Source: Dysidea avara (taxonomy: Eukaryota > Porifera > Demospongiae > Dictyoceratida > Dysideidae). From it: a stretch of 64,000 nucleotides of DNA. Every line of letters starts with the position of its first letter. The first letter of the stretch is position 1. Location of the stretch: contig NC_089281.1 in assembly GCF_963678975.1 (NCBI RefSeq), forward strand, positions 6,101,277-6,165,276. The letters are read 5' to 3'. Positions 4,510 to 29,515 of this stretch are shown piece by piece. The notes beneath the pieces are model-generated. The model was not told the DNA's origin, searched no databases, and was given only the letters and a program-made list of their open reading frames with translations. Made by a program: the position numbers and the translations under genes.

Positions 4510-4902
4510 ATGGCAGATGGTGGACTACCAAATGGTGGTCCCCCTCACAAAAGGCCACCTGATACTGTTCATGATCTTTGCAAACGTGAAGTCATTTTCA
4601 ATAAACATATCAACCTTGATTTATTACTGCCATATTTGAAAGAAACAAATATTCTTACAAGCAGAGAAAGTTATACATTGTCATACGCTGCCACACCTCC
4701 TGAAAACAGAATATCGCAACTTGTGACAGAGATACTGCCCAGTAAAGGGGAAAGAGCTCTAGAAGTTTTAAAACTAGCATTATTGGAGTCATTAGAAGAA
4801 GAAGGAAGCGATGGCCATGAGTTTATTTTGCAAGAAGTCTTTGGGATTGTCAATGGTACCATAGCCAACAATTTCAACAATGATACAGACAGAGAGTGGC
4901 TG
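4510..4902 (+). CDS. N-terminal exon of the HELZ2-like gene: CARD-like death-fold domain
   Basis: Start chosen at 4510 (MADGGLPNGG), directly after an acceptor-like tag. Residues about 20-110 read as a CARD-like six-helix domain: LCKREVIFNKHINLDLLLPY, then KETNILTSRE, the helix-3 region PPENRISQLV, and TEILPSKGERALEVL, which matches the CARD core pattern LL.(L/I)LP..G..AF..L. Death-fold domains mediate homotypic assembly of signalling complexes such as inflammasomes, apoptosomes and RIG-I/MAVS filaments. The frame stays open to a stop at 4954, but the next coding segment uses another phase. A short intron (for example 4903-4943, GT...CAG, 41 bases) restores it; other donors are possible. Confidence 0.7.
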
Positions 4903-28900: not shown

Positions 28901-29515
28901 TTTGAAATATCTGAAAATTACCAGCTGTGTTATATTTACTTACTTACAGTAATGATAGTTTTCAAAGGCTATGCTGAATTACTTGTATATCTGGTTTTTA
29001 TTTATTTTATTATTTTGATTTGCAAAGGCTTACAAATACGACATTATGAATGTACACAAGTCTGTAAATACAATGGTAAATTGGTACACACATAGTATAT
29101 CTATAGTACACATAGAGAAGCTTTGCCCATGTTTCCTCTTTTAGGAAACGAATGTGGAATTGTGTTATTGTCAACTGTAAGATCCCAACCATTGGAGGAT
29201 ATTGAGAATCCTGAGGCATTGATTCCTGATCGAGGATGGTTGGGTGAAAATCTTGGTTTTTTGACTGACACCCATGTCATCAATGTTGGTATCACCAGAT
29301 GTCAATATGGCCTGATCATTGTTGGTATGATACATTGATACTCGTACACTCATACAGTTACTATTTCCAATAAAGGTAACAAGTGTCTTCTTGACTATGA
29401 TGATACCTGGAGTGAACTGATACATTTTTGTTCCAACCATGACAATGTGGTACGTGAAACACAGTTCCCTTCAAGAGCTGATCGTGAAAGGATTAAGGGA
29501 TTTATGGTTGTATGA
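4510..29515 (+). CDS. Death-fold (CARD-like) HELZ2-type protein: CCCH zinc fingers, SF1 helicase, RNB, SF1 helicase
   Basis: One gene, assembled from splice consensus and phase. Exons: 4510-4902 (end uncertain), 4944-6002, 6153-about 6362, 7332-7442, 7758-8088, 11533-11588, 11655-11831, 11920-12982, 15157-15570, 16188-16260, 16311-19926, 19973-20067, 21664-21822, 22537-22680, 24523-25160, 25532-25783, 26121-26277, 29145-29324 and 29376-29515 (stop TGA at 29513). From 7332 to the stop all phases agree except at a 25-bp duplication in 11655-11831. The product is about 3,080 residues; human HELZ2 is about 2,650. The order zinc fingers, helicase, RNB, helicase is that of HELZ2 (helicase with zinc finger 2), a nuclear-receptor coactivator and interferon-induced factor in mammals. 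The front about 550 residues carry death-fold domains instead. Expected role: RNA binding or unwinding linked to death-fold signalling (inference). The 25-bp duplication would truncate the protein if real and fixed. Confidence 0.85.
4944..6362 (+). CDS. Second and third exons of the HELZ2-like gene: DED/death-like segment and unassigned beta-rich region
   Basis: The first exon here runs 4944-6002 (donor ACT|gtaaga) and the next from about 6153 to about 6362. Its first 100 residues (KRLKRIVTYF, then FAKLFNCLD, SMLRKFIEVL, VVDRLHQLLDNYE) have the helix spacing of a death-effector or death-like domain. After a linker comes a part I cannot assign (SVIFYWEFPKECYQYLLEGF, LQQFRITKVE); it resembles the small beta-alpha module seen next to death folds in invertebrate proteins. 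The second exon is Cys-containing (SCYKNDVPTHC). Reading continues open to 6569, but from about 6363 it looks like intron. Domain naming rests on pattern only. Confidence 0.55.
6921..7190. repeat. Hairpin (inverted-repeat) element in an intron of the HELZ2-like gene
   Basis: The left arm, about 6921-7030, reads cactcaaaacagccaagctg, then caaaggtggcggccatgaaa. The right arm, about 7075-7190, carries the reverse complement (tcatggccaccacctttgat through tttttgagtgga). The arms are about 100 bp and imperfect, with a loop of about 45 bp. A single-arm relative lies at 38330-38440, showing this is a dispersed family. Confidence 0.7.
7332..8088 (+). CDS. Zinc-finger exons of the HELZ2-like gene
   Basis: Two exons, 7332-7442 and 7758-8088, joined in phase 0. 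The first ends with a CCCH-like cluster, CVAISCQAICEYSH. The second carries a Cys/His-rich part (HICATC, HCFKPCDH) and then a clear CCCH finger, CPDMMRCCKGRKCPKAH, followed by SGVELHFWNKLQQ. This finger plus the E..FW tail matches the fingers upstream of the first helicase in HELZ/HELZ2. It probably binds RNA or supports protein contacts. The donor after LQQ is gtgagc, in phase 1. The acceptor at 7757 (gtatgtacag) was chosen because it alone keeps phase 0 with the preceding exon. Confidence 0.75.
8089..11532. other. 3.4-kb intron of the HELZ2-like gene
   Basis: No coding exon is supported in it. It contains a Tigger/pogo-type miniature element at 8365-8574 and otherwise AT-rich sequence with a T run at 10731-10746 and GT-rich patches near 10040. 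The flanking exons join in phase 1, so no missing exon is required. Confidence 0.6.
8365..8574. mobile_element. Tigger/pogo-like miniature element
   Basis: About 210 bp, starting tacagtggaacctcggttat and ending in the inverted counterpart ataactgagggtctactgta. TIRs of this type (CAGTnGACCCTCnGTTATCnG) flanked by TA are typical of Tigger/pogo elements of the Tc1-mariner superfamily. An inverted copy is at 43767-43970, and fragments are at 40364 and 40650. Confidence 0.75.
11533..12982 (+). CDS. First SF1 helicase of the HELZ2-like gene, exons for its N-terminal half
   Basis: Exons 11533-11588, 11655-11831 and 11920-12982. The part around YCEKFHHLLYWEELQHIEDL matches the segment that precedes the helicase in MOV10/HELZ proteins. 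The Walker A motif GPFGTGKTH is at 12521-12547. Motif Ia lies near IVTHHNKSVD, the Walker B motif DEGAQ at 12887-12901, and motif III begins at GDHMQ, right at the exon end. The donor after CAG is in phase 0 to the next exon. The exon at 11655-11831 contains a 25-bp direct duplication that breaks the frame (see separate entry); without it all phases match. Confidence 0.88.
11694..11743 (+). repeat. 25-bp tandem duplication causing a frameshift in a coding exon
   Basis: The unit catcccagtttgtctgctat plus tgcta occurs twice, starting at 11694 and at 11719. The exon enters in the phase set by the upstream exon (PFQMIRQERYINKHPSLSA) and meets a stop just after the second copy. The frame compatible with the next exon starts again inside the second copy (HPSLSAIASKLSV). 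One copy removed would restore an uninterrupted frame. Confidence 0.9.
12983..15156. other. Intron of the HELZ2-like gene, rich in dispersed repeats
   Basis: No coding sequence supported. It holds a copy of the palindrome-headed repeat (gacacacaatagtgtgtcat, near 13170), one arm of the element related to 58190-58390 (13770-13910), a fragment of the family also at 28080 and 57830 (13960-14115), and an hAT-like inverted-repeat element at about 14497-15045. Confidence 0.55.
14497..15045. mobile_element. hAT-like non-autonomous element
   Basis: The left end (gaggtgtaccgataatcgga followed by several cggtatcgg units) is mirrored at the right end (cagatcggttattggc, then gatatcggtacatgcc). ATCGG-rich terminal and subterminal repeats of this style are common in non-autonomous hAT elements. 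The exact ends and target duplication are unclear, and no transposase is visible. Confidence 0.5.
15157..16600 (+). CDS. First SF1 helicase of the HELZ2-like gene, C-terminal half
   Basis: Exons 15157-15570 and 16188-16260, plus the first part of 16311-19926. Motif IV is INYRSHESI; motif V is GREFQAVFVST, whose Gly codon is split by the intron; motif VI is VVTRAQSLVVCVGNP. Together with the preceding exons this is a complete UPF1-like SF1 helicase core with all catalytic residues in place. It is therefore predicted to be an active ATPase and 5'-3' helicase if the upstream frameshift is not fixed. Intron 15571-16187 (617 bp) shows no features. Confidence 0.88.
16600..19926 (+). CDS. RNB (RNase II-like) and linker region of the HELZ2-like gene, within one 3.6-kb exon
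   Basis: The exon 16311-19926 has 1,205 codons without interruption. After helicase motif VI it enters an RNase II/RNB-like region, as in HELZ2: OB-like strands (KLYGKVEKFI), PVGMVVGSIAKGY, then the RNB motif I position at 17432-17473 and YHVNFYVIDVAG. All four acidic metal-binding positions of RNB motif I are replaced (M, I, Q, N at spacing 0/6/8/9), so exonuclease activity looks unlikely. The conserved order FSSKIMRELAFALGEPRYCF matches the RNB 'LP...S...LSL' segment. A long tail with an acidic Ser/Asp/Glu-rich patch (about 19650-19790) leads to the second helicase. Confidence 0.8.
19973..29515 (+). CDS. Second SF1 helicase of the HELZ2-like gene
   Basis: Eight exons: 19973-20067, 21664-21822, 22537-22680, 24523-25160, 25532-25783, 26121-26277, 29145-29324 and 29376-29515. 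Q-motif region: STRQMSTIRNA. Walker A, GPPG|TGKS, is split by an intron. Walker B is DEAAM (from 24954) and motif III is GDHQQLQP. Motif IV is EQFRM|HQHLCEFPARKFY, across an intron. Motif V is SSEG|NECGIVLLSTVRS and motif VI is VGITRCQYGLIIVGN. The C-terminus (DDTWSELIHFC) ends at TGA 29513-29515. Every junction is in phase with GT-AG borders. All SF1 motifs are intact. This is the UPF1-like helicase that closes HELZ2 proteins. Confidence 0.92.
20068..21663. other. Intron of the HELZ2-like gene
   Basis: 1.6 kb, AT-rich. I see no exon, no clear element and no RNA gene. Palindromic tcatgataat/atatcatgat patches occur near 21210-21500. Confidence 0.5.
21823..22536. repeat. Intron of the HELZ2-like gene with a dispersed inverted-repeat element
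   Basis: The intron separates the two halves of the Walker A codons. Near 21940-21990 it reads cagtggcagatctaaatggg, and near 22370-22400 the inverse, cctagatccgccactgctaa. These look like the ends of a short non-autonomous element of about 450 bp filling most of the intron. Confidence 0.5.
22690..23036. repeat. Tetranucleotide microsatellite (ATGT/ACAT)n with an internal inversion
   Basis: It begins about 10 bases after the splice donor at 22681. The run is tatg-type for about 20 bases, passes through gcatgcatgcatgcat and continues as (cata)n for more than 300 bases with scattered gcat and tgca variants, ending near cgtacgtacatacgtgcaca. Because ATGT and ACAT are complementary, the flip makes the start self-complementary. 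Long frames on both strands here are artefacts. Confidence 0.95.
23050..23770. repeat. Dispersed repeat sequence in an intron of the HELZ2-like gene
   Basis: GC-richer than its surroundings, with phrases such as gtcccacctggaccttcacc and gacccagcctgggaaaactg. The latter echoes gacccagtctgggagaatca (minus strand) of the neighbouring SINE, so this is probably one or two further retroposed repeats. No gene supported. Confidence 0.4.
23770..24095 (-). mobile_element. tRNA-derived SINE
   Basis: Read on the minus strand from about 24095, the head gives an A-box-like tgccaagtggttagagca and a B-box-like agttcaatgct about 35 bases later, as in RNA polymerase III promoters of tRNA-derived SINEs. The body follows, with tttactcacattgctccagt and aaatggggacctgatgtcaa, a central block I recall as shared among invertebrate SINEs. 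It ends near 23770 without a long A tail. A (CA)n run abuts the head. Confidence 0.75.
24096..24200. repeat. (CA)n dinucleotide microsatellite
   Basis: About 52 uninterrupted CA units immediately next to the tRNA-like head of the SINE, inside the intron between exons 22537-22680 and 24523-25160. Confidence 0.98.
26325..26710. mobile_element. Miniature inverted-repeat element with 'gccgcggctatta' ends
   Basis: The left end, accgtatttgaccagttaat followed by agccgcggctactat, is mirrored at the right end by gccgcggctattaaccggtc and aaatacgta. The length is about 385 bp with TIRs of about 30 bp. It has no coding capacity, so it is a MITE of unassigned superfamily. Confidence 0.75.
27771..28042. 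repeat. Long hairpin element
   Basis: The left arm, 27771-27885 (aatttggaattttcaactat through gtaaaacaac), and the right arm, 27935-28042 (tgttttactgtgatttaata through ttccaaattg), are almost perfectly complementary over about 110 bp around a loop of about 50 bp. The high arm identity suggests a young insertion. Confidence 0.85.

Follow-up and report, generated by a model that had tools for sequence, protein, structure and literature searches.

Gene model of the CARD-HELZ2 locus

The stretch of DNA analyzed here, referred to as the window, comprises 64,000 nucleotides of the sponge Dysidea avara (NC_089281.1, numbered C10 in our list of contigs; C10:6101277-6165276) and originates from an assembly of 550.8 Mb in 108 contigs. 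It contains a plus-strand gene, spanning positions 4510-29515, in which a CARD-bearing N-terminal module precedes a double helicase of the HELZ2 type. The exon model yields 3100 residues once it is read over two frame breaks. It opens with the CARD and an unassigned stretch of helical and alpha/beta character, after which come the HELZ2 fingers, helicase 1, an OB/RNB region and helicase 2 (Table 1).

The two superfamily 1 (SF1) helicases and the RNB region that an earlier reading of the nucleotide sequence (the sequence-only reading) had postulated were recovered with Pfam, since AAA_11 and AAA_12 were matched twice each and RNB (4.9e-11) was accompanied by OB_HELZ2 (1.4e-8). The HELZ2 layout, i.e., two SF1 helicases flanking OB/RNB, is complete in the window, and helicase motifs are kept (GPFGTGKT and DEGAQ in helicase 1, GPPGTGKS and DEAAM in helicase 2). 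A weaker ResIII match (6.4e-6) was obtained for helicase 1; the RIG-I domain was not found in the ten window pieces scanned against Pfam, the best matches being AAA_11/AAA_12 of SF1. Of the CCCH fingers claimed previously, a single finger of the CCCH type was discerned by eye, as well as a CxxC motif, but not several clear fingers.

Table 1. Features of the CARD-HELZ2 gene (window positions).
Feature	Position	Strand	Evidence or remark
Exon 1: start codon (MADGG..), CARD, helical (DED-like?) segment, TRADD-N-like unit 1, second helical and alpha/beta stretch	4510-6360	+	Frame shifts once near 4950; open in tandem copy, C7 and C6
CARD	about 4597-4788	+	Pfam CARD PF00619, E=1e-4, 22.7 bits
Frame break 1	4945-4956	+	Net one-base difference from tandem copy; frame of the start codon ends at 4954-4956
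Helical segment, possibly DED-like (weak)	4998-5210	+	Pfam DED E=0.027, 15.2 bits (cut-off 35.9), window copy only
TRADD-N-like unit 1	5316-5615	+	Beta-alpha-beta-beta-alpha-beta by eye; invariant G-S-V-x-x-Y-W-E-F
Second helical and alpha/beta stretch, perhaps second such unit	5652-6360	+	53% identity to tandem copy
Phase-1 intron, module to HELZ2 fingers	6361-7776	+	Same phase in tandem copy, C7 and C6
HELZ2 N-terminal finger exon (CxxC and CCCH type)	7777-8088	+	Identity 54% tandem copy, 46% C7, 44% C6
Small exon	11533-11588	+	Tandem-copy counterpart with splice sites
Exon carrying frame break 2	11655-11831	+	25-bp tandem duplication inside
Frame break 2: 25-bp tandem duplication	11694-11718 and 11719-11743	+	25-mer twice in window
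Helicase 1, first exon (GPFGTGKT, DEGAQ, GDHMQ)	11920-12982	+	AAA_11 5.6e-21; 60% identity to tandem copy
Helicase 1, second exon	15157-15570	+	AAA_12 1e-11; 66% identity to tandem copy
Helicase 1, small exon	16188-16260	+	Splice model; 73% identity to tandem copy
Long exon: helicase 1 end, OB_HELZ2 (about 16814-17011), RNB (about 17417-18442)	16311-19926	+	Pfam; 1191 aligned codons free of stops
Position of the RNB catalytic motif, with M..QN in place of the aspartates	17426-17467	+	Comparison with human reference residues (PMC9839780)
Exon	19973-20067	+	Splice model, tandem-copy comparison
Helicase 2, Walker A part 1	21664-21822	+	Splice model, tandem-copy comparison
Helicase 2, Walker A part 2	22537-22680	+	Splice model, tandem-copy comparison
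Helicase 2 core	24523-25160	+	AAA_11 8.9e-22; 68% identity over 231 columns, tandem copy
Helicase 2 exon	25532-25783	+	Splice model only
Helicase 2 exon	26121-26277	+	Splice model only
Helicase 2, AAA_12 end	29145-29324	+	AAA_12 7.9e-11
Last exon, stop codon	29376-29515	+	Splice model only

Exon 1 had originally been joined from 6362 to an exon at 7332-7428. Its end was moved to 6360 and joined to 7777 because of the conserved intron phase described below; the supposed exon breaks this phase, and the corresponding intron of the tandem copy shows only an 8-residue match at chance level. An intron within 6003-6108 was rejected, since its excision breaks the frame. Introns of helicase 2 contain extended (CATA)n and (CA)n repeats (window 22690-23020 and 24095-24200).

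The two frame breaks were both overlooked by the sequence-only reading, and neither occurs in a tandem copy of the gene. At the first of these, the frame opened by the window start codon ends after the CARD, giving 148 residues; a 41-nt intron at this site was rejected, since the tandem copy is uninterrupted there. The 25-mer duplicated at the second break is absent from the 50 kb surrounding the tandem copy, and the counterpart exon of that copy is unbroken. Outside both breaks, the 3100-residue reading is free of stops. Judged from the assembled sequence, the window copy cannot make the full protein.

Paralogous copies and the module-to-finger join

In a genome-wide search, the module was found at four strong loci, namely the window, the tandem copy (58%), C7:7395918 (39%) and C6:17293876 (36%), followed by three further matches with E-values of 0.026-3.4. 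The tandem copy starts approximately 62 kb upstream (C10:6043849); its MADGG.. start, CARD and whole module lie in a single open frame (fetched stretch L021:7450-9276; 53% identity over 636 columns), and the exon 1 donor GAAA/GT is common to both copies. Downstream of the module, in a tblastn comparison that extended up to the helicase 2 core, the tandem copy harbors the finger exon (54%), helicase 1 (60%), the RNB exon (55%) and the helicase 2 core (68%, 231 columns) in the same order as the window. The module also occupies one open frame in C7 (L026) and C6 (L027), and at both loci a HELZ2 finger exon was identified downstream on the same strand (46%, E 9e-24, and 44%, E 1e-22, respectively).

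The intron separating module and fingers is in phase 1 at all four loci, which are distributed over three contigs, and the residues at the join read E/N-SSCDV (window), E/N-TGDEV (tandem copy), E/D-KVCDV (C7) and K/D-NICDV (C6). Because the module-to-finger order and the intron phase recur at every strong locus, there is strong evidence at the genomic level that the CARD module and the HELZ2 exons belong to one transcript. The same recurrence disfavors a separate gene ending before 7332, the case in which the sequence-only reading would have failed. Moreover, an open reading frame (ORF) upstream of a HELZ2-like helicase on C4, which we infer to be part of that helicase gene, has its own methionine just before a CxxC motif, which is what the addition of the CARD module to a pre-existing N-terminus would predict.

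The helicases of the C7 and C6 copies were not reached within the approximately 24 kb read per locus. Furthermore, none of the AAA_11 matches listed for the genome (at least 87) falls at these loci, and exon-5-like motifs downstream were too weak to count (E 5.4 and 4.7, respectively); truncation or long introns may account for this in both copies. When a module profile was compared with open frames of at least 40 residues in stretches L001-L023 and the window, which include ten HELZ2-like loci taken around helicase 1 with about 7-18 kb upstream, only the C10 pair matched. Clusters of more HELZ2-like genes were noticed at C9:27.46-27.81 Mb and C13:16.15-16.90 Mb, and no CARD module was detected upstream of eight HELZ2-like loci in the stretches fetched from them. 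Near another HELZ2-like gene, a 314-residue ORF (L003:6239-7180, plus strand) contains SVILYWLIP, which resembles the TRADD-N-like turn by eye; this ORF gave just E 0.98 in a tblastn search with the module and no Pfam match.

N-terminal domains, RNB catalytic site and selection

The CARD-like domain recognized in the sequence-only reading was supported by profile searches. Its Pfam score in the window lies just under the curated cut-off of 23.9 bits, whereas that of the C7 homologue exceeds it (28.0 bits, 2.2e-6) as the only one of the four copies; the C6 copy falls just short (23.6 bits, 5.3e-5), and the tandem copy, searched alone, gave no Pfam match. A profile of the four copies matched the RAIDD CARD in the PDB (E=0.0027). 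A second death-fold-like segment, also claimed, could not be established, as it corresponds to the single weak DED match of the window copy, which is absent from the tandem copy, C7 and C6 in Pfam.

TRADD-N domains are described as RRM-like with a small residue and a serine in the beta2-beta3 turn (PMC8195603). In the module, the sequence G-S-V-x-x-Y-W-E-F at the second turn is invariant in all four copies, and the topology and Gly-Ser turn of this alpha/beta unit agree by eye with the published description, suggesting a TRADD-N-like fold. Neither a TRADD-N or NCOA6 match at E<=10 (Pfam) nor a TRADD chain in the PDB comparison was obtained for the module; because no profile search confirmed TRADD-N, the unit is designated TRADD-N-like only. 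Scanning of three pieces against NCBIfam gave no match, and comparison with a profile of unit 1 did not support an internal repeat between the two alpha/beta stretches. An AlphaFold model of 4947-6362 was set aside (mean pLDDT, i.e., predicted local distance difference test, of 35.8).

Human HELZ2 degraded RNA 3' to 5' in vitro, and no degradation occurred when three aspartates were exchanged for asparagine (PMC9839780). The positions of human D1346, D1354 and D1355 are occupied by M/Q/N in the window (AIMPKTKEIFQNAF), T/E/N in the tandem copy (AITQKVGGVIENAF) and D/D/D in a HELZ2-like copy on C9 (TIDPPEAEAFDDAL), in which the aspartates are spaced as in the human protein. In an alignment with DIS3L2 (4.5e-20), the C9 copy showed three of the four aspartates that make up the DIS3L2 motif, one being missing. 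Because the catalytic aspartates are replaced and the human triple-asparagine protein is inactive in vitro, the RNB is predicted to be nuclease-dead in both CARD copies read, but not in the one other copy compared (C9).

Between the window and the tandem copy, the ratio of nonsynonymous to synonymous substitution rates (dN/dS) was 0.45 over the 136 codons of the CARD part, 0.25 over the remaining 464 codons of the module and 0.22 over the 1191 codons of the RNB exon, at dS values of 1.03-1.41, i.e., near saturation. At this level of comparison, the module is maintained in the long term as coding sequence together with the helicase part.

Relation to known systems and proposed function

Interferon-stimulated vertebrate HELZ2 shares the arrangement of finger, helicase 1, OB_HELZ2/RNB and helicase 2, in this order, with the window gene, and differs from it by the CARD module in front and the replaced RNB aspartates of the latter. 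Vertebrate HELZ2 is not known to possess a CARD, and ZNFX1 is not known to possess a CARD of its own or an RNB. Like the window gene, ZNFX1 encodes an SF1-type helicase, and it was described as a receptor of double-stranded RNA acting through the pathway of the RIG-I/MDA5-type receptors (RLRs) (PMC12585102). The RLRs, among them poriferan RLRs with an N-terminal Death domain (PMC8998645), resemble the window gene in having a death-fold domain N-terminal to an RNA helicase, but they combine an SF2 helicase with the RIG-I C-terminal domain instead of two SF1 helicases and RNB. In D. avara, two HELZ2 genes were reported to be expressed at a lower level 5 h after the sponge had met its microbial symbionts (PMC11229196).

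In NCOA6- and DEDD2-clade TRADD-N proteins of marine animals, one to three Death-like domains precede an RRM-like alpha/beta domain and a variable C-terminus (PMC8195603). This layout is comparable to that of the window gene, and the turn of small residue plus serine agrees by eye with that of the window module. In the sponge Amphimedon, 357 NCOA6-clade TRADD-N proteins were reported, and in most architectures one to three Death-like domains stand at the front. For the DEDD2 clade, cnidarians and brachiopods were described to have fusions with RLR-like receptors, DDX60 and Mov10 (PMC8195603). HELZ, Upf1 and RNB are not mentioned in the main text of that study; its source tables might list a case. 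The CARD-HELZ2 design fits these published Death-like/TRADD-N expansions and is less isolated than the sequence-only reading, which knew of no such fusion, had supposed. In searches of the main texts of open-access papers, no title or abstract opening among those listed named a CARD-HELZ2 fusion, and no paper pairing TRADD-N with HELZ2 was returned. In a protein database of about 5.8 billion entries, region 1-900 of the 3133-residue read-through shared words with 5041 candidates, none at E<=10. Likewise, the module had no relative among 19 pattern matches in a collection of genome contigs or two in viral contigs, and the RNB exon had no pattern match in the viral contigs.

Based on these results, we propose that a CARD-bearing module of the Death-like/TRADD-N-like kind was joined by exon fusion to the N-terminal end of a HELZ2-type double helicase, yielding a nuclease-dead, CARD-signalling RNA sensor (probability roughly 0.45). 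The independent origin of such a death-fold receptor for RNA, as suggested by the sequence-only reading, is plausible, and nothing found contradicts it. The pair of SF1 helicases and the inactive RNB fold would engage RNA of foreign or retroelement origin but leave it uncleaved, and ATP-driven loading onto RNA would cluster the N-termini. Clustered CARDs could then nucleate a filament recruiting a CARD partner, i.e., a caspase or an adaptor, and the TRADD-N-like units might offer a second surface for docking. Such a protein would work similarly to RIG-I/MDA5, but be built on SF1 helicases. It is doubtful whether the genes go further and represent an RLR-independent second class of animal CARD-signalling RNA receptors, in the form of a small three-contig family whose broken window copy might act as a CARD-alone damper of the others.

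Alternatively, the fused protein could be a restriction or RNA-handling factor for viral or retroelement RNA, its front end serving only for scaffolding or granule placement, with no death or immune cascade. In line with this idea are the stronger dependence of LINE-1 restriction by human HELZ2 on the helicases than on the RNase (PMC9839780), the replaced RNB aspartates in both CARD copies read and a DUF5641 ORF, presumably a retroelement, just upstream in the window. It is considered less likely than the sensor function; homotypic assembly, the usual mode of action of CARDs, speaks against it, as does the selection that maintains the module alongside the RNB exon. Very improbable is a pair of adjacent genes, one for the CARD module and one for HELZ2, that were co-duplicated and yet transcribed separately. 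An AATAAA at 6807, within the intron 6361-7776, and in-frame ATGs in the C7 open stretch upstream of the finger acceptor would suit such a pair, and the joined gene model is a prediction from genomic sequence. However, phase-1 donor and acceptor sites persist at the four loci, spread over three contigs, although window and tandem copy have no real similarity in their intron sequences, and the finger exons have no methionine ahead of the conserved motif.

The proposed sensor function is compatible with the defects of the window copy. Probably this copy alone is affected, as a pseudogene, a broken haplotype or the product of two assembly errors, and the other copies are working. The restriction of both breaks to the window copy argues for this explanation, and its otherwise stop-free reading argues against it. 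Because no further stops have accumulated, any decay would be recent.

If the sensor function applies, RNA helicases were coupled to CARD signalling on more than one occasion, with sensing by SF1 as well as SF2 enzymes, and one branch of HELZ2 would sense RNA rather than degrade it. A single genome offers a similar helicase framework with and without the CARD, and with and without the RNB aspartates, for testing the sensor idea.

Regarding the surroundings of the gene, the upstream DUF5641 ORF (window 2820-3752, plus strand, 310 residues) was assigned at 1e-21. A sphingolipid delta4-desaturase-like gene is located at 47210-48436 on the plus strand (FA_desaturase 1e-24, Lipid_DES 1.5e-5). By eye, it was paired with a similar ORF next to the tandem CARD-HELZ2 copy (L022:1907-2995), which suggests a larger segmental duplication. 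On the minus strand, fragments of a protein kinase gene (Pkinase 1.1e-8) occupy 51370-55746, together with a 400-residue ORF that had no Pfam match at E<=0.1. Elsewhere in the genome, C8:17.34-18.75 Mb harbors a dense array of AAA_11 matches, each within one long open frame (1300-2200 residues in many cases), which is an expansion of another SF1 helicase family.

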